Assembly (NCBI GenBank): GCA_018771605.1 | Contig: CP076324.1 | Span: forward strand, 372,001-436,000 | DNA length: 64,000 nt | Reading direction: 5' to 3' | From: Aquificota bacterium | Lineage (GTDB): Bacteria; Aquificota; Aquificia; Aquificales; Aquificaceae | In this document: positions 9,869 to 56,866 of the stretch, piece by piece | Layout of the letters: every line of letters begins with the position of its first letter | Numbering within the stretch: the first letter of the stretch is position 1 | Notes under the pieces: generated by a model | Told to the model about the DNA's origin: nothing | The model's input: the letters and a program-made list of their open reading frames with translations, nothing else | The model's database searches: none | Translations under genes and position numbers: made by a program

Positions 9869-11143
9869 ATGCTAAGCAGAAGAGAGTTTTTAAAGTATGG
9901 TGGCTCTTTTGCTATTATTTCTATTCTTCCTTCTTGTGCAGAAGCCACCACAAAGAGACCTTTTTTAAACCTTCTTCCAGAGCAAAAAGAGATAGAGATA
10001 GGAAGGTCCTATGTGCCCTACGCCATAGAGGAATTTGATGGGCTATACTCCGATAGGGAAATTCAAAGTTATGTAAAGAACGTTGGCCTTAGCCTTACAA
10101 GGGTGGCAGAAAGGAAGCTACCCTACGAATTTTATGTGGTAAATTCTTCCCAGGTCAACGCCTTTGCCCTTCCTGGTGGGCCGGTTATGATAACCAGGGG
10201 CCTATTGCTTAGGTTAAACTCGGAGAGCGAGCTTGCAAACGTGCTTGCCCACGAGCTTGGGCACCTAAACGCAAGACACCATGCAAGGTTTTTAGAAAAG
10301 CAGTTTGGCCTTAGTCTTCTTTTGAACATAGGGGCCTTGCTCTTGGCAGACAAGCCTTACGGGCAGGTGCTTTTGCAGTTTGGACAGATAGGTGCGGGGC
10401 TTTTGAGCCTAAAGTTCAGCAGGGACCAGGAGAGGGAAGCGGACCAGTATGGCCTTCTCTATGCCTACAAGGCTGGCTATGACCCAATGGGCATGATAAG
10501 AGTTTTTGAGACCTTTAAGGCTATGGAAAAAAGAGAAAGAGCGCCCGAGTGGCTCTCCACCCACCCACTTCCAGAAACAAGGATGGCCGAGGTAAAAAGG
10601 ATGATAGAGACTTTTAAGCCTACAGGCTACTTTATAACAGACACCCAAGACTTCCAAGTTGCAAAGGAAAAGCTTTTTAAGACAAAGCCTTCCTTTGATG
10701 AGTTTGACAAAGGAAAGGTTGCCTTTGCCAAAAAGGATTACAGTCAGGCAAGCAGACACTTCCAAAGGGCCATAGAGCTTTATCCAGAGAACTACACAGC
10801 AAGGGCCTATATGGCCTACATACTTGCCATGGAAGGAAGGACAGGGGAGGCCGAAAGGCATTCAAGTCTTGCACTAAGGACCATGCCCGATGTTTTCCTT
10901 ACAAACTTTGTGCATGGCTATGTAAAGTTTGCCCAAAGGGAATATCAAGAGTCTTTAAGATATCTTCAAAAGGCAAACAGGCTCATACCGGACCATGCCT
11001 CCACCCACTACTACCTTGGAAGGAACTACGAAGCCCTTGGACAAAGAGAAAAGGCCATAGAACACTACAGGATAGCCCTTGAGCTATCTCAAGGCAAGGC
11101 GCCATGGGCGGAGGATGCAAAAGAAAGGCTAAGAAGGTTATAA
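9869..11143 (+). CDS. M48 metalloprotease with C-terminal TPR repeats (BepA-like)
   Basis: 424 residues. The N-terminus combines an SRREFLK twin-arginine-like motif with a possible lipobox (LPSC), so it is exported and may be a lipoprotein. The zinc motif HELGH is near residue 128, with the third ligand in EREADQYG near 190. TPR-like repeats follow from about 270 to the end (for example FDKGKVAFAKKDYSQASRHF). BepA/YfgC-type proteins monitor and degrade misassembled outer-membrane proteins in the periplasm. The final three codons and the stop lie inside the direct repeat that flanks the adjacent mobile elements, so the gene was left intact. Confidence 0.87.
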   Translation: MLSRREFLKYGGSFAIISILPSCAEATTKRPFLNLLPEQKEIEIGRSYVPYAIEEFDGLYSDREIQSYVKNVGLSLTRVAERKLPYEFYVVNSSQVNAFALPGGPVMITRGLLLRLNSESELANVLAHELGHLNARHHARFLEKQFGLSLLLNIGALLLADKPYGQVLLQFGQIGAGLLSLKFSRDQEREADQYGLLYAYKAGYDPMGMIRVFETFKAMEKRERAPEWLSTHPLPETRMAEVKRMIETFKPTGYFITDTQDFQVAKEKLFKTKPSFDEFDKGKVAFAKKDYSQASRHFQRAIELYPENYTARAYMAYILAMEGRTGEAERHSSLALRTMPDVFLTNFVHGYVKFAQREYQESLRYLQKANRLIPDHASTHYYLGRNYEALGQREKAIEHYRIALELSQGKAPWAEDAKERLRRL

Positions 11144-11151
11144 TTTTCTCA
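11130..11151. repeat. Target-site duplication, copy A
   Basis: First of three identical direct repeats of 22-23 bp with a central TTATAAT. This copy contains the end of the M48 protease gene (…AGG TTA TAA). The other copies are at 11363-11384 and 14085-14106. The three copies separate two adjacent mobile elements. Confidence 0.85.
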
Positions 11152-11362
11152 TACGCCGAGTGAGAAATTAATTAGGAAGCTGGGATACCATCATACCTTC
11201 TTGCAAAAAATAAATGAGACAAGAAATGTAGAAGCACGGCATGCCGTGCGACTACTAATAAAAAATCCAAAAGTAGTGGCGGGTCTTGAACCCGCCTGAT
11301 GTTTTATAATCTGGCAGGTTTAAAACCTGCCACTACAAAGGATGAATTTCTCACCCCACGTA
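11152..11362. mobile_element. Miniature inverted-repeat element (MITE), 211 bp
   Basis: The element has no coding capacity and lies between two copies of the 22-bp direct repeat. Its ends are imperfect inverted repeats, TACGCCGAGTGAGAAATT at the left and TACGTGGGGTGAGAAATT on the other strand at the right. These match the ends of the adjacent IS, which could mobilise it. The interior holds several perfect palindromes: GCACGGCATGCCGTGC near 11236, a GGCGGG/CCCGCC hairpin near 11280 and a GGCAGGTTT/AAACCTGCC hairpin near 11312. The last two are nested inside GTAGTGGC/GCCACTAC. Confidence 0.75.
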
Positions 11363-11384
11363 TAAGAAGGTTATAATTTTCTCA
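11363..11384. repeat. Target-site duplication, copy B
   Basis: This is the middle copy of the direct repeat, separating the miniature element from the full IS. Its presence shows that the same target was used for two successive insertions. Confidence 0.85.
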
Positions 11385-11444
11385 TACGCCGAGTGAGAAA
11401 TTCCCTTTAAGCTAAACCTTCCATATCAATAAAAAGACAGCAGG

Positions 11445-11466
11445 GCTACTATAATAGTAGCTCTAA
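11445..11466. promoter_or_regulatory. Palindrome upstream of the transposase gene
   Basis: GGGCTACTA and TAGTAGCTC form a stem of about 9-10 bp with a tiny AT loop, followed by GGAGG and the transposase ATG. It could fold in read-through transcripts and hide the ribosome site, a common way for insertion sequences to limit transposition, or it could be a binding site. The same structure precedes copy 2. Confidence 0.45.
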
Positions 11467-11487
11467 AAATCATCGGAGGTTTTTATC

Positions 11488-12324
11488 ATGGAAATTATAC
11501 CACCTTACCTACGCATCTACCAACAAATCCTAAAAGACCTTGAAAATGCCTTGCCATTCCTTAATGTGCCAAAAGCTAAAGCAGGCAGAAAGCCTAAACT
11601 CACAGACATCCATATAGCAGCCATCTTTATACTCTCCTACATAACCAATACAAAAGTCCTCACCTTAGCTAAACTACTTATTGACCCATCCATACAATCA
11701 TGGCATATCTTCAGAAGATACAGACTCAAGAGAGTATACAGGATATTGAGAGAATACAAGCTTCACAAGCTGAGGCTTATGATTTTAGCAAGGCTTTTGT
11801 ATGGTAAGAAGATAGAACTTGTAATAGATGGAACCATAGTGGACATAGCCAATGTAAACAGGGCGAGGACACAGAAGATAAGGAGGGTAAGAGGGAAGGT
11901 ATGGTGGGCAAAGAGGAGAAGGAAGATAGTTCGGAGAGACAATGGGAAGGTAGTGGAGTTTGAGGAGGTCAGGTATGGCATGTTGATGATGGTGTTATGT
12001 GATAGGTGGGGAAGAGTTTATGATGTGTGGATAAGCTTTGGAAGTGTGCATGAGGTTAGGGCATTTAGGGAAAGGAAGAGAAGGAGTTTATGGTTTAGGA
12101 AGCTTGTGGAGAGTTGTGTGGTGTATGGAGATAGGGGTTATAGGGGTTGTGAAGGTGTTATTGTGTGTGGTAGTAGGGAGATGAGGGCAAAAAGGCAGGT
12201 AGTGGAAGGTGTTATAAGTCAGATAAAGCTTTTTAATGCTGGTAGTGGGTGGAGGACTTTAACTTGTGTGCTTGTGTATGTATATGCTTATGCTATTGGA
12301 TATAGCTATTATAGGAGGCTATAA
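11488..12324 (+). CDS. DDE transposase, copy 1 (C-terminus altered by insertion)
   Basis: 278 residues. Candidate catalytic residues are Asp114 (VIDGT), Asp215 (VYGDRGYRG) and Glu240 (RQVVEGVISQIK), the arrangement of IS4/IS5/IS982-like RNase-H-fold transposases; I cannot fix the family further. A basic stretch (RRVRGKVWWAKRRRK, 132-146) probably binds DNA. The intact copy ends YYRRGELEV. Here the nested IS110-type element replaces GELEV with a single Leu and a stop, so the protein is probably still functional. GGAGG precedes the ATG. Confidence 0.88.
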   Translation: MEIIPPYLRIYQQILKDLENALPFLNVPKAKAGRKPKLTDIHIAAIFILSYITNTKVLTLAKLLIDPSIQSWHIFRRYRLKRVYRILREYKLHKLRLMILARLLYGKKIELVIDGTIVDIANVNRARTQKIRRVRGKVWWAKRRRKIVRRDNGKVVEFEEVRYGMLMMVLCDRWGRVYDVWISFGSVHEVRAFRERKRRSLWFRKLVESCVVYGDRGYRGCEGVIVCGSREMRAKRQVVEGVISQIKLFNAGSGWRTLTCVLVYVYAYAIGYSYYRRL

Positions 12325-12348
12325 GTAATGATTAGTCTTAGACCCTAC

Positions 12349-12377
12349 TTGACAGCATTTGAGAGGGGGTCTATATT
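12349..12377 (+). promoter_or_regulatory. Promoter at the left end of the IS110-type element
   Basis: TTGACA (12349-12354), a 17-bp spacer and TATATT (12372-12377) make a near-consensus sigma-70 promoter pointing into the ribbon-helix-helix and recombinase genes. An AGACCC/GGGTCT inverted repeat (from 12340 to about 12371) surrounds the -35 box and could be an operator. Confidence 0.6.
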
Positions 12378-12419
12378 ATGTGGTTGAAATACTCCTGTAG
12401 TCATGATTGGAGGAATACT

Positions 12420-12599
12420 TTGAAGAGGAAAGAAAAGTTTCAACTATGGATGCCTTCAGAAGTTTTGTGGAAGCTCCGTGCCATAGCGGAAGAGGAAGGA
12501 AGAACGGTGTCAGACCTTATCAAAGAAGCGGTAGCTGAGTGGCTTGACAAAAAGGAAAAGGAAAAGTCAAGACCTATAAAACTGGAGGAGCTTAAATGA
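12420..12599 (+). CDS. Ribbon-helix-helix DNA-binding protein within the IS110-type element
   Basis: I place the start at the TTG at 12420, because GGAGG lies at 12409-12413 with a 6-nt spacer; an upstream ATG at 12378 has no ribosome site. About 59 residues: a beta-strand (KEKFQLWMP) and two helices (SEVLWKLRAIAEEEG; TVSDLIKEAVAEWLDKKEKE) give the typical RHH/CopG pattern. The stop overlaps the recombinase start by 4 bp (ATGA), so the two are coupled. It probably represses the element's own promoter or helps recombination. Such a gene is not a standard component of IS110 elements as I know them. Confidence 0.65.
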   Translation: MKRKEKFQLWMPSEVLWKLRAIAEEEGRTVSDLIKEAVAEWLDKKEKEKSRPIKLEELK

Positions 12600-13854
12600 C
12601 AAAATTTGTTGTGGGAGTGGATGTGGATTCTAAAGCTTGTCAGATATGTGTTAAGGAAGTTTCAAGCAAAAAAACACTACTTAACATAAAAGTTGCAAAC
12701 CTTGAACTGCAGGAGTTTATTGAAAAAAGACTGAAGGAACTTGCTGTGCCTTCTGAGTCTATGGTAGTTATGGAAAGCACTGGTAAATCTTACTTTCTCT
12801 TTCCTATGCATGTTTTTTCTTCCTTTGGTTATCAGGTGAGGGTAGAAAACCCACGCTTTATTAAAGCCTTTGCAGACAGTTTTTCTGTGAGGGTAAAAAG
12901 ACTGACAGGTATGATGCGGAAGTTTTGGCTCTTTATGGAATAGAGAGGTGCATAGGCTCATATAAGGTTTCATATCTTCCAAACGACCTGAAGGCTACCG
13001 TCAGACACTGGGCGAAGCTAAGGAAGGTGAAACAGGAGATAGAAGGATATGCTTTCTCTCAAGCTCTTGTGGTGTTTCCTTTAATTGACGAAGTTTTTGG
13101 AGGAAGTCCTTTAAAGACAAAGATTGGGAGGTTTGCTCTTTCTTACTATGAAGGCTGGCATAACTTGTATGAGAGAGATTTTCAGACTTTCAAGGAAGAA
13201 GTTTATAGCCATGTGAGGCGTGCAAGGAACACAGACAAGTTTTTAGACCTGCTTTACAGGTATGCGGAGAAGATAGCCAAGACAGGTTATAAGCCAACAA
13301 GCAGGCAGGTAGAACTTCTCAGGCTTGCTTTGAGAGAGCTTGAGGAATACGAGAAGTTAATAAGGCTTGTGGAAGAGGAGCTTATAAGGATAAGCAGAGG
13401 AATAGAAGAGGTTGAGCTTTTGAAGAGCATACCTGGGATAGGTGATTTGAGCGCTGTTGTGCTGTATGCGGAGATAGGGAATATAGACAGGTTTAGAGAT
13501 AGAGACGACCTTTGGGCATATTTTGGTATGGACCCGAGAAACGAAGAAAGCGGAGAAAGCGTCAGGAGAAGTAGCAAGATTTCCAGAGCTGGAGTGTCTT
13601 ATGTTAGAGGTTTGCTATACATGATAGCCTGCTCTCTAATAAGGAAAGGTGCGCCATATTTTGAAACATACTGGCAGTTAAGGAAAAAAGGCAAGAGCCA
13701 TAAAGAAGCTTTGATAGTAATAGCTCACAAGATAGTGAGGATAATCTATGGTGTTTTGAAAGGAAGGTTTCCGTGCAGGAAGTTTGCAGGTCATATAAGC
13801 AAGTCAGTGGTAGATTTTGATGAGCTTATTTATGAGGTGCAGGAAGATGAGTAA
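12596..13854 (+). pseudogene. IS110-family DEDD recombinase, frameshifted
   Basis: Two overlapping frames together encode one IS110-type protein of about 420 residues. The first frame supplies VGVDVDSK with the first catalytic Asp and MESTG (Glu60). It then runs off at the expected KTDxxDA motif. In the -1 frame the DNA reads KKTDRYDAEVLALYG and continues to the end, including the GDLSAVVLYAEIG and LWAYFGMDPR region typical of the C-terminal transposase_20 domain. The shift occurs in an A5 run near 12895-12899; six A residues would restore one frame. Either one A was lost or ribosomes slip from AAA to AAA. Confidence 0.8.
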
Positions 13855-14000
13855 GGGCGGAAGAGCGGGCTTCATGTTCATTGCCCTGCATGCGGGCGTT
13901 AGGAGGCGTGCCCCCTTCCGCTCTTTTAATGTGTTCCTGCGGGCGGACATTATAGATACCCCAAAAGCGGGTGTTCGGAGGATTGCCCTGGGAACACAAA
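13855..14000 (+). ncRNA. Candidate bridge/seek RNA of the IS110-type element
   Basis: This non-coding tail of the element follows the recombinase stop and can form two successive hairpins. In the first, AAGAGCGG (13861-13868) pairs with CCGCTCTT (13918-13925) and encloses a GCCC/GGGC stem. In the second, GTGTTCC (13931-13937) pairs with GGAACAC (13991-13997), extended by GGGC/GCCC and with an apical CCC/GGG stem and internal loops. IS110/IS1111 elements encode such two-loop RNAs that specify target and donor DNA; in the IS1111 group they lie 3' of the recombinase gene, as here. The assignment is inference from position and fold. Confidence 0.5.
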
Positions 14001-14084
14001 AAATAAAAACTTTGCTAACTAAATACTTGACAAAAAATTTTTCGGAGGGGTGAACTTGAGGTCTAATTTCTCACCCGGCGTGTA

Positions 14085-14106
14085 TAAGAAGGTTATAATT
14101 TTCTCA
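14085..14106. repeat. Target-site duplication, copy C
   Basis: Third copy of the direct repeat. It supplies TATAAT (14094-14099) 6 nt before the argJ ATG, and its last base is the first base of that ATG. Because the repeat carries both the upstream gene's stop and the downstream gene's start region, neither gene was damaged. Confidence 0.85.
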
Positions 14107-15236
14107 TGGAAATTTTAATGGGCGTTGGAAAGGCTGGCCTAAAGTCTGGAGAAAAACCAGACATACTTGTAGTGCTTTTGCCACAAACATGTAGTGCTTC
14201 CTTTCTTTTTACAAAAAATCACTTTAAATCTGCCAGCGTGCTTTACTCCCAAAAGGTCTTTAATGGAAGGGTAAGAGCTATGGTGATAAACAGCGGGAAC
14301 GCCAACTGTGGCGTTGGGAGGGAAGGGCTTTTGCATGCGGAACTTATGGCAAAGAGGGTGGCAGAAAAACTTGATGTGGAAGAGGATGAGGTGCTTGTCT
14401 TTTCCACAGGTGTGATAGGAAAGCCCTTACCCATAGATAGGGTACTTTCTGGTATAGATTCTGCCTGTGAAATCCTTGAACCCCTTGACCTAAAGAGGGC
14501 AAGCGAGGTAATATCCACCACTGATAGCTTCCCCAAGTATGACTTTGTGAAGAGGGATAAATTGGAGGTCTTTGGCTTTGCCAAGGGTGCTGGTATGATA
14601 CATCCCAACATGGGAACTATGCTTGCCTTTGTCTTTACCAACGCAGACCTAAGGGAGGATATCTTGGAAAGGCTTCACAAGGACATAAACGATAGGACTT
14701 TTAACTCCATAAGCGTGGATGGATGTATGAGTACCAACGATAGCTTTGGCCTCATAAGCCTTGGGTTTGTAAAGGAGGACCTACAAAAGGTGAGCGATGC
14801 CATAGAGGAGGTCTCACTTAGCCTTGCCAAGAAGATAGTTCAAGATGGTGAAGGAGCCACAAGGGTCATAAAAGTGGTGGTAAAGAACGCATCACTACAG
14901 CTAAAGGCAAGGTTTATAGCCCAGGCGATAGCCACCTCAAACCTTGTAAAGACGGCAGTATTTGGAAAAGACCCCAACTGGGGAAGGATAGTGGCGGCGG
15001 CCGGTTCTACAGCCTTTCCTATAGACCAGTTTAAGCTAAAAGTTTATATAGGAAGCCACCTTGTATACGATGGAAAGGTGCATCCCAAGGCCGTAGAGAA
15101 TGCCAAGAAGTATATGGAAGAATCTCAGGAGATTGAGATAACCCTTGACCTTATGGAAGGAAAGGAAAGCTGGACCTACTACTCTTCCGACCTTACCTAC
15201 GACTATATAAAGATCAACGCAGAATATACCACTTAG
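14106..15236 (+). CDS. argJ: Bifunctional ornithine acetyltransferase/N-acetylglutamate synthase ArgJ
   Basis: 376 residues, close to the usual ArgJ length. The autocleavage site is visible as MIHPNMGTMLAF: cleavage before Thr in GTML gives the alpha and beta chains. Other family segments are GNANCGVG, STGVIGKPLP, SISVDGCMSTND and DPNWGRIVAAAG. It recycles acetyl groups in arginine synthesis. Whether it also accepts acetyl-CoA cannot be told. The start lies 6 nt after a TATAAT box and has only a weak AGAAGG ribosome site. Before the insertions it was 6 nt downstream of the M48 protease stop. Confidence 0.92.
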   Translation: MEILMGVGKAGLKSGEKPDILVVLLPQTCSASFLFTKNHFKSASVLYSQKVFNGRVRAMVINSGNANCGVGREGLLHAELMAKRVAEKLDVEEDEVLVFSTGVIGKPLPIDRVLSGIDSACEILEPLDLKRASEVISTTDSFPKYDFVKRDKLEVFGFAKGAGMIHPNMGTMLAFVFTNADLREDILERLHKDINDRTFNSISVDGCMSTNDSFGLISLGFVKEDLQKVSDAIEEVSLSLAKKIVQDGEGATRVIKVVVKNASLQLKARFIAQAIATSNLVKTAVFGKDPNWGRIVAAAGSTAFPIDQFKLKVYIGSHLVYDGKVHPKAVENAKKYMEESQEIEITLDLMEGKESWTYYSSDLTYDYIKINAEYTT

Positions 15237-15252
15237 GCTATATTTATAAACT

Positions 15253-15771
15253 ATGATGAAAGCCATACCTTATATACTAACGGCTATCCTTTTGATTATG
15301 GTCTTATTCTTTGCCTTGGAACACAAGAAGGAGGATGAAGGCTTATCTTCTTACAGGCCACCGGTGGAGCAAAGCCTTCCAAACTTTACCTTTAAAACCC
15401 TTGATGGCAAGGAAATTAGCCTGAACGATTTTAGAGGAAAGGTCCTTCTTGTAAACTTCTGGGCCACCTGGTGTCCACCTTGTAGGGAAGAGATGCCCAT
15501 CTTTGAAAAGGAATACAAAAGGTGTAAGGACAAAGGCTTTGAAATACTGGCTGTGAACATGGATAGCTCTGAAGGGTCTGTAGAGAAATTTTTGCGTGAG
15601 AACCCTGTATCCTTTCTTATAGTAAAACCTACCGATAACCTTGAGAAGGAACTAAAGCTTATGGGCTTTCCTACCTCTTACCTTTTGGATAAGGAAGGCA
15701 AGATATACCGTATAAGGTTGGGTGTTTATAGGGAGCTTGATAAGGATCTAAAAGAGCTTTTGGGATGTTAA
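15253..15771 (+). CDS. TlpA-like membrane-anchored thiol-disulfide oxidoreductase
   Basis: 172 residues. An N-terminal hydrophobic anchor (about residues 4-22) is followed by an AhpC/TSA-type thioredoxin fold. The active site WATWCPPCREEMP (CxxC near 73-76) and the cis-Pro loop GFPTSYLLD are present. TlpA/ResA-like proteins reduce apocytochrome c or other periplasmic thiols, which fits the c-type cytochromes in this window. Two ATG codons occur in tandem at 15253 and 15256; either may be used. It follows argJ by 16 bp and is likely co-transcribed. Confidence 0.88.
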   Translation: MMKAIPYILTAILLIMVLFFALEHKKEDEGLSSYRPPVEQSLPNFTFKTLDGKEISLNDFRGKVLLVNFWATWCPPCREEMPIFEKEYKRCKDKGFEILAVNMDSSEGSVEKFLRENPVSFLIVKPTDNLEKELKLMGFPTSYLLDKEGKIYRIRLGVYRELDKDLKELLGC

Positions 15772-15886
15772 GTGTATTATGCTTCTACCTCTAGTACTAT
15801 AATCCTATATGTATGCTTTGAACTAACATCTACAATTTACGTACAAAGGCCGTTTCCAGTGTAATTAATTCAAAGCCTTTGTAGAA

Positions 15887-16231
15887 CTATTTTATAAAAC
15901 GAATACTTAAAGGATAGTGGTAAACTTCACCCTTACTGGAAGCAATTACAGCTAAGATCATTACTACAATCTGAAATATATACAGCAAAATAGCCAATAA
16001 GAAACCTACAAGCAAAAGCGCCAATAAAATAGCAATTATCCAGTATATTATCATGGTAATTTGAAAGTTTAGCGACTCTTTTGCGTTCTGATATACAAAA
16101 TCCGATTCCTTACCCACCGTAAGCATAATCACCAAAGGCAGTATTATGTTCCCAAAAGGTACTATTATGGCAATTGGAGCAAGGTGAGCTATAACTGCCC
16201 ATGTTATCTCCCTGGAAGATAATGCAGACAT
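15887..16231 (-). CDS. DUF4870 family membrane protein
   Basis: 114 residues with three or four hydrophobic helices. The pattern of an N-terminal WAVIAHLAPIAI helix, a QNAKESLNFQIT segment and two further hydrophobic helices matches the DUF4870 (Tic20-like) family. Function is not established; members are small inner-membrane proteins. The 155 bp upstream and 115 bp downstream are AT-rich and contain no recognisable gene, so it stands alone. Confidence 0.75.
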   Translation of the reverse strand: MSALSSREITWAVIAHLAPIAIIVPFGNIILPLVIMLTVGKESDFVYQNAKESLNFQITMIIYWIIAILLALLLVGFLLAILLYIFQIVVMILAVIASSKGEVYHYPLSIRFIK

Positions 16232-55731: not shown

Positions 55732-56699
55732 TACGCTGGGTGAGAAATTAGACCTCAAGTTCACCCCTCCTGTAATAACTATATCCAATAGCATAAGCAT
55801 ATACATACACAAGCACACAAGTTAAAGTCCTCCACCCACTACCAGCATTGAAAAGCTTTATCTGACTTATAACACCTTCCACCACCTGCCTTTTTGCCCT
55901 CATCTCCCTACTATCACACACAATAACACCTTCACAGCCCCTATAACCCCTATCACCATACACCACACAATTCTCCACAAGCCCCCTAAACCATACACTC
56001 CTTTTCTTCCTTTCCCTAAATGCCCTAACCTCATGCACACTTCCAAAGCTTATCCACACATCATAAACTCTTCCCCACCTATCACATAACACCATCATCA
56101 ACATGCCATACCTGACCTCCTCAAACTCCACTACCTTCCCATTGTCTCTCCGAACTATCTTCCTTCTCCTCTTTGCCCACCATACCTTCCCTCTTACCCT
56201 CCTTATCTTCTGTGTCCTCGCCCTGTTTACATTGGCTATGTCCACCATGGTTCCATCTATTACAAGTTCTATCTTCTCACCATACAAAAGCCTTGCTAAA
56301 ATCATAAGCCTCAGCTTGTGAAGCTTGTATTCTCTCAATATCCTGTATACTCTCTTGAGTCTGTATCTTCTGAAGATATGCCATGATTGTATGGATGGGT
56401 CAATAAGTAATTGGGCTAATGTAAGAACTTTTGTATTGGTTATGTAGGAGAGTATAAAGATGGCTGCTATATGGATGTCTGTGAGTTTAGGTTTTCTGCC
56501 CGCTTTAGCTTTTGGCACATTAAGGAATGGCAAGGCATTTTCAAGGTCTTTGAGGATTTGTTGGTAGATGCGTAGGTAAGGTGGTATAATTTCCATGATA
56601 AAAACCTCCGATGATTTTTAGGGCTACTATTATAGTAGCCCTGCTGTCTTTTTATTGATATGGAAAGTTTGGCTTAAAGGGAATTTCTCACCCGACGTA
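55732..56699 (-). mobile_element. DDE insertion sequence, copy 2 (uninterrupted)
   Basis: 968 bp with inverted repeats TACGCTGGGTGAGAAATT and TACGTCGGGTGAGAAATT. It is nearly identical to copy 1 at 11385-14084 and defines the uninterrupted structure: palindrome, GGAGG, transposase gene, and a stop codon that lies at the inner edge of the inverted repeat. Confidence 0.88.
55748..56596 (-). CDS. DDE transposase, copy 2 (full length)
   Basis: 282 residues ending YYRRGELEV. The candidate triad is VIDGT (Asp114), VYGDRGYRG (Asp215) and VVEGVISQIK (Glu240). It differs from copy 1 at only about ten positions, so both copies are recent. Full-length status makes it the likelier source of active transposase for this family in the window. 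Confidence 0.9.
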   Translation of the reverse strand: MEIIPPYLRIYQQILKDLENALPFLNVPKAKAGRKPKLTDIHIAAIFILSYITNTKVLTLAQLLIDPSIQSWHIFRRYRLKRVYRILREYKLHKLRLMILARLLYGEKIELVIDGTMVDIANVNRARTQKIRRVRGKVWWAKRRRKIVRRDNGKVVEFEEVRYGMLMMVLCDRWGRVYDVWISFGSVHEVRAFRERKKRSVWFRGLVENCVVYGDRGYRGCEGVIVCDSREMRAKRQVVEGVISQIKLFNAGSGWRTLTCVLVYVYAYAIGYSYYRRGELEV

Positions 56700-56769: not shown

Positions 56770-56866
56770 GTTTATTAAGTGCCTATAAGGAGTTGAAACC
56801 GGTCTCAAAACGCCCAAGCCTCACGCCCACAGCGGGGTTTATTAAGTGCCTATAAGGAGTTGAAAC
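56770..56866 (+). CRISPR. CRISPR remnant: two 30-bp repeats, one 37-bp spacer
   Basis: Identical repeats at 56770-56799 and 56837-56866 begin GTTTATTAAG and end GTTGAAAC. The spacer (56800-56836) is GC-rich. No cas gene is adjacent; the Cmr genes are about 5 kb away. The second repeat is directly followed by the truncated end of a methyltransferase gene. The 70 bp before the first repeat are AT-rich and could be leader or flank. Confidence 0.85.

Follow-up and report, generated by a model that had tools for sequence, protein, structure and literature searches.

A probable guide RNA downstream of an Aquificota IS110-type recombinase, apparently programmed to a translation start signal

The stretch of Aquificota DNA analysed here (64,000 nucleotides of contig CP076324.1, hereafter the window) contains an IS110-family element nested inside a small multicopy insertion sequence (IS), and raises the question of what lies between the end of the recombinase gene and the point where the host IS resumes. 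A sequence-only reading had placed a tail of about 190 bp here and proposed that it encodes a guide RNA; the interval does extend for 194 nt, from the stop codon (13854) to the host-IS remainder. Our analysis leads us to conclude, with a probability of roughly 0.92, that the tail carries the gene for a guide RNA of the bridge/seek type, which serves the recombinase just upstream and is programmed to a translation start signal. The earlier guide-RNA proposal is borne out in this respect, although it had missed the Shine-Dalgarno/start-codon nature of the target.

The boundaries of the element are fixed by a second copy in the same genome (L002, G000:C1:1310679-1312426), since the two copies match base for base while their flanks differ; they are identical bar one G, which is absent from the recombinase of the window copy. 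The left boundary reads TAGGAGG/CTATAAG and the right end TTTTTCGGAGG, and the exchange point could lie anywhere within the 5-bp GGAGG that both ends share. The core had been predicted to be GG or GGAGG; GGAGG is found at both ends, and within these 5 bp the two versions are indistinguishable. Insertion removes the last residues (GELEV) of the host transposase (11488-12324, plus strand), and the right end of the host IS resumes at 14049. The uninterrupted host IS at 55732-56699, which had been expected to give the exact target, is present and is counted among 22 uninterrupted host-IS ends in the genome, all 22 of which carry the window target, TATTAYAGGAGG followed by GGTGAACTTGAGG. The left and right flanks of L002, which sits before an acetyl-CoA synthetase gene, join to CCGTAGGAGG followed by TGTAAACATGG. 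The features of the element and its target are as follows.

12319..14048 (equally 12314-14043, with GGAGG at both junctions), plus strand: IS110-family element, 1730 bp, delimited by the second copy with differing flanks and the empty host-IS copies.
12314..12318, plus strand: GGAGG at the left junction, the target-derived core; every uninterrupted copy of the host IS has it, as does the L002 target.
14044..14048, plus strand: GGAGG at the right junction, found at the right ends of all copies, which supplies the Shine-Dalgarno sequence of the downstream gene once the element has inserted.
55766..55770, minus strand: target core without an insertion, in the intact host IS (GGAGG on the minus strand).
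12420..12599, plus strand: small ribbon-helix-helix (RHH) protein of 59 aa, with a TTG start and GGAGG ahead of it (73 aa from the ATG at 12378); Pfam RHH_1 above cut-off.
12596..13854, plus strand: IS110-family DEDD recombinase, frameshifted here (one G missing at about 12890); intact, at 419 aa, in L002.

Two observations concern the host IS. Its transposase shows a weak match to IS982, far under the NCBIfam cut-off, despite more than 20 copies of the IS, and adjoining the intact copy (56770-56866) a 30-bp repeat, GTTTATTAAGTGCCTATAAGGAGTTGAAAC, occurs twice with starts 67 bp apart and looks like a tiny CRISPR array.

The recombinase belongs to the IS110 family in the broad sense, combining a DEDD RuvC-type N-terminal domain with a Transposase_20 domain that carries the SG motif. 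The intact copy scores 179 bits against NCBIfam NF033542 (cut-off 140), PF02371 lies above the Pfam cut-off and PF01548 just below it (truncated frame), and among PDB sequences the protein matches IS621 (8wt6, E 8e-21) and ISCro4, its acidic and SG motifs aligning with those of IS621. With its recombinase frameshifted and its guide RNA intact, the window copy may depend on the second copy, L002, for movement. The RHH gene is also present in the copies of a related genome (G012), and its start in the left end of another (G010), as far as that contig reaches. A further RHH gene, beside a related recombinase in G068, was examined as a possible conserved partner but set aside, as it heads a different gene pair with what we take by eye to be a DUF4007-like protein; an RHH homologue in G006 (C1:577828-577986) adjoins the transaldolase locus where a G012 element inserted. 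Right after the captured GGAGG, a short leader ORF can be read in the window (12319-12390, MISLRPYLTAFERGSILCG) and in G010 (L070, MMKNHRRYLTVSGGGINLCS), possibly translated from the Shine-Dalgarno sequence of the host gene.

Minimum-energy folding of the tail yields two stem-loops, in agreement with the two consecutive hairpins with internal loops that had been described, at an energy that is no more than modestly unusual (z -1.88; 10/200 shuffles). Both follow the same plan, running from an outer stem through a GGGC/GCCC clamp to an internal loop with about 12 nt per side, and ending in a short hairpin. The stem-loops, delimited by folding and comparison of tails, and their guide segments are listed below.

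13855..13923, plus strand: stem-loop 1, with the target-binding loop.
13871..13882, plus strand: right target guide UUCAUGUUCAUU, complementary to the top strand right of the core; 8/12 exact, and 11/12 and 10/12 with wobble for the two targets of this genome (G000).
13898..13909, plus strand: left target guide GUUAGGAGGCGU, equal to the top strand left of the core plus the core; TAGGAGG 7/7 in both G000 targets.
13930..13998, plus strand: stem-loop 2, with the donor-binding loop.
13945..13957, plus strand: right donor guide GGACAUUAUAGAU, whose UUAUAG complements CTATAA at the left end of the element.
13972..13984, plus strand: left donor guide UGUUCGGAGGAUU, of which UUCGGAGG equals the right end; across five tails it changes together with the right end.

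Loop 1 stands out in an unguided scan, in which any pair of segments in the RNA region could fit the two sides of the target, in either order, with 300 shuffles for comparison. For both G000 targets the best pair was UUCAUGUUCA (right side) then GUUAGGAGG (left side), which are the two sides of loop 1. With the top-strand match first, no shuffle in 300 did as well for the targets jointly, and 0/300 and 1/300 did so singly, whereas with the opposite guide order 39 to 165 of 300 shuffles did so, a far less striking result. Pairing of loop bases with the target was the check that the sequence-only reading had itself proposed, and loop 1 passes it on both strands.

The same scan for the donor returned CAUUAUAG then GUUCGGAGG, the two sides of loop 2, with 3/300 shuffles as good. 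A second loop that matches both element ends across the core, one of the marks of a bridge or seek RNA, is therefore present here, and the absence of any such complementarity had been named as grounds for abandoning the proposal. In 5/5 tails the left donor guide agrees with the right end at positions -7/-6, where UC, GC and GU stand with TC, GC and GT, so that loop and element end change jointly. Promoter-like sequences lie close to the same ends.

12349..12377, plus strand: internal promoter-like TTGACA-N17-TATATT in the left end, a sequence match; the G010 copy has TTGACA-N17-TAATTT.
14027..14032, plus strand: -35-like TTGACA, which in a circle of joined ends lies 17 bp from TATAAG (12320-12325).

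Joining the ends would create a putative junction promoter, TTGACA-N17-TATAAG, whose activity we infer from its sequence; the G010 contig-end pieces, when joined, give TTGAAA-N16-TATAAA. Junction promoters have been described for IS621, ISEc11 and ISEc21 (PMC11208160, PMC11187229).

The position of the RNA had also been taken to match the IS1111 group, and this holds for its location and guide order. As in that group, a long non-coding region with the RNA lies downstream of the gene, and the top-strand match lies 5' of the bottom-strand match, which is the guide order of IS1111 seekRNAs (PMC11187229). A true IS1111-group element would be compatible with a guide RNA, but inverted repeats, recombinase length and protein similarity all point elsewhere. 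A search of the element ends for the subterminal inverted repeats of 7-17 bp that characterise IS1111 gave a longest exact match of 5 bp, equalled in 93% of shuffles, and the recombinase has 419 aa against 330-350 aa for the group. In pairwise scores, for which there were few references and IS4321 was the sole sure IS1111 representative, it reaches 28 bits with IS4321 and 83-118 bits with ISMno7, a Peribacillus IS110 protein and two Aquificota IS110 proteins. We therefore consider IS1111 membership unlikely and do not file the element there, its recombinase being, by sequence similarity, closer to IS110-type proteins. Neither does it conform to the IS110 group in the narrow sense, in which the RNA lies upstream of the gene, as the left end of about 100 nt before the RHH gene is without an RNA. 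Some IS110-type elements do have a downstream non-coding region (PMC11187229), so the arrangement is uncommon rather than unheard of. The multicopy IS110 elements of G072 (L130-L143) and G097 (L144-L145) were tried as a second test case and left, having other flanks and other ends. These are copies of another IS110-type element, flanked by the repeated, palindromic-looking GAGGACTTTAGTCCGAAGGATCTC, and offer a second Aquificota case for guide-target analysis.

The tail has relatives in four further genomes of its genus and, in decayed form, in one genome of another genus of the family, and its conservation can be followed through these. In an alignment of five tails, which was fitted to the structure model and so leans towards it, the 33 named pairs are kept in 90% of cells, and 13 of the 33 have changed on both sides, compared with an expectation of 4.5 from column shuffles and a maximum of 5 with the partners slid. 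Covariation among homologous tails, whose absence had been named beforehand as a possible refutation, is thus present, and these compensatory changes agree with the predicted hairpins. In the three close tails the letters that vary are concentrated in two places, the loop 1 guides and the terminal hairpin loops, giving the conserved secondary structure with varying guide positions by which bridge and seek RNAs are recognised. Intact target-loop sequences number three; the two most divergent tails (G008 and G013) are remnants, and the decayed tail (G027, L060), which is without part of the target loop, was used for the donor loop only. A covariance model built from three tails recovers the G008 and G013 remnants (per-genome E 5e-5 and 1e-5), and when run over 136 genomes of the phylum it detected tails within the genus only; the G027 tail came from a DNA search. 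An Rfam search of 11000-16000 returned no relevant family, and a protein search of viral contigs and a DNA search of phage records returned nothing; in a search of genome contigs, matches were limited to contig ends of one Tibetan MAG. The G013 remnant (L080 1501-1659) is a diverged two-hairpin RNA without a recombinase, near the transposase gene of another IS, with its clamps kept and its loops quite different.

GC-rich hairpins followed by T runs, and the terminator-like sites present in the tail, would also suit a pair of transcription terminators or attenuators, or a DNA structure bound by the recombinase, with the target chosen by protein-DNA contacts. Such sites number 2, however, against 1.3 expected in shuffles, and this explanation, which we regard as very improbable, leaves unexplained why the loops match the target and the element ends on both strands, and why they change jointly with both.

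The remaining comparisons concern the joint change of guides and targets among relatives. Loop 1 of G010 reads UUCAUGCCAUUU and GUAAGGAGG. Its left flank is AGAAGGAGG, and its right flank AAATGTCATGGG fits the right guide at 9/12 positions exactly and at 11 with wobble, a fit equalled by 0/153 other Shine-Dalgarno/start sites; the left and right ends of this copy map to different places in G006 and may represent two insertions. Cognate guides fit their own targets better than do guides from other tails. At -7/-6 the left target guides UA, AA and CU meet targets TA (CA, by wobble, in G012), AA and CT, the guide for the G012 transaldolase insertion, whose target loop lies off the assembled contig, being assumed equal to that of the window. 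The GGAGG portion of the match is common to all Shine-Dalgarno sites, and the summed fit of guides to real sites was reached in 0/20,000 draws of other Shine-Dalgarno/start sites, taken from the window and the fetched loci. That guide and target resemble each other simply through GGAGG/ATG-like motifs in both, with the RHH protein or the recombinase recognising Shine-Dalgarno sites, is the least credible account: GGAGG is shared by construction and the element does encode an RHH DNA-binding protein, but the match reaches non-motif letters and is better than at other Shine-Dalgarno/start sites, and the variable guide letters at -7/-6 change together with the target.

One insertion in G012 (L075) is an exception, with a left guide that fits the target and a right guide matching at 2/12; the left guide sits in a self-complementary stretch, and its match could partly be coincidence. 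This copy may have moved with the RNA of another element, or its loop may have decayed. It is a 295-bp recombinase-less derivative (L075 1410-1704) that keeps both ends and the whole RNA, and is possibly a non-autonomous, MITE-like form carrying its own guide.

The insertion sites indicate what the guide would recognise. All insertions other than the window copy lie inside a GGAGG upstream of a gene, as judged from empty sites or orthologous gene starts in sister genomes. By Pfam the target genes encode acetyl-CoA synthetase, transaldolase, PmbA/TldD and GYD-domain proteins; another, after glyS, is presumably ppdK, recognised by eye, and a further one begins MLELKDLPKVANE (known from the orthologue only). 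The start codon follows GGAGG by 7 nt in three right flanks (acetyl-CoA synthetase, transaldolase and GYD) and by 6 nt in L075, and the start codon falls within CATGAA, to which the invariant guide segment UUCAUG is complementary. The window insertion has entered a Shine-Dalgarno look-alike in the multicopy host IS, with TTG 7 nt after GGAGG; this look-alike codes for the transposase end, and it is therefore the sequence that is recognised and not translation itself. A genome-wide count gives 7 occurrences of YAGGAGGN6CATG and 1 of the reversed control. As the right end of the element supplies GGAGG, the downstream gene retains its Shine-Dalgarno sequence and spacing. We infer that the guide reads a ribosome-binding site plus start codon, and that the element inserts there in different genes and restores the ribosome-binding site. 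On balance we lean towards the guide target being a generic host signal (Shine-Dalgarno sequence, spacer and start codon), through which many translation starts could be entered without breaking coding sequence.

We are now able to propose a mechanism. The RNA would be transcribed, perhaps from the junction promoter of a circular intermediate, and bound by the recombinase. Stem-loop 1 would pair with the target, UUCAUGUUCAUU on the right of the core with the top strand and UUAGGAGG on its left with the bottom strand, and stem-loop 2 with the joined element ends, UUAUAG to CTATAA of the left end and UUCGGAGG serving the right end. The recombinase would then exchange strands within the shared GGAGG. 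The programmed target would be UAGGAGG-N6-C-AUG, a Shine-Dalgarno sequence plus start codon, and the element would thus be expected to enter the translation starts of different genes, as well as the look-alike in the multicopy IS, and to restore the Shine-Dalgarno sequence at its right border. Wild-type RNA would be expected to direct recombination at the target GCTATTATAGGAGGGGTGAACTTGAGG.

Such a target logic would tie RNA-guided recombination to translation starts, as a gene-independent target that leaves coding and Shine-Dalgarno sequences intact. A partial precedent is offered by IS900 of Mycobacterium avium subsp. paratuberculosis, which we take to be an IS110-family element. According to the title of Doran et al. 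1997 (cited in PMC8141618), IS900 targets translation initiation signals; that title names no guide RNA, whereas guide letters are readable here. Translation-start targeting is therefore not without precedent, while its explanation by a guide RNA appears to be new, and a single RNA-encoded rule could, if true, also explain the targeting reported for IS900. Furthermore, an IS110-type recombinase from a largely thermophilic phylum is here paired with a guide RNA whose location and guide order follow IS1111, and this pairing is relevant to how the RNA has moved between element ends. A bridge recombinase adapted to heat, with loops that are short and easily read, may also find laboratory use.

Compared with the IS621 bridge RNA (PMC11208160), the order of target loop then donor loop, pairing of each with both strands, a DEDD recombinase and a promoter-like sequence across joined ends are all shared. 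Here, in contrast, the RNA follows the gene, in the right end of the element, the guide order within each loop is reversed, the recombinase has 419 aa against 328 for IS621, and the target takes in a Shine-Dalgarno sequence and start codon. With the IS1111-family seekRNAs of ISEc11, ISPa11 and ISKpn4 (PMC11187229) the element shares an RNA downstream of the gene and a top-strand match 5' of the bottom-strand match, and it differs from them in its lack of subterminal inverted repeats, its longer and distant recombinase and its clear donor loop. Finally, ISEc21 (PMC11187229), another member of the IS110 family, also sits inside a transposase gene belonging to a different IS, although its RNA lies upstream and it targets a catalytic motif of IS3-family elements.
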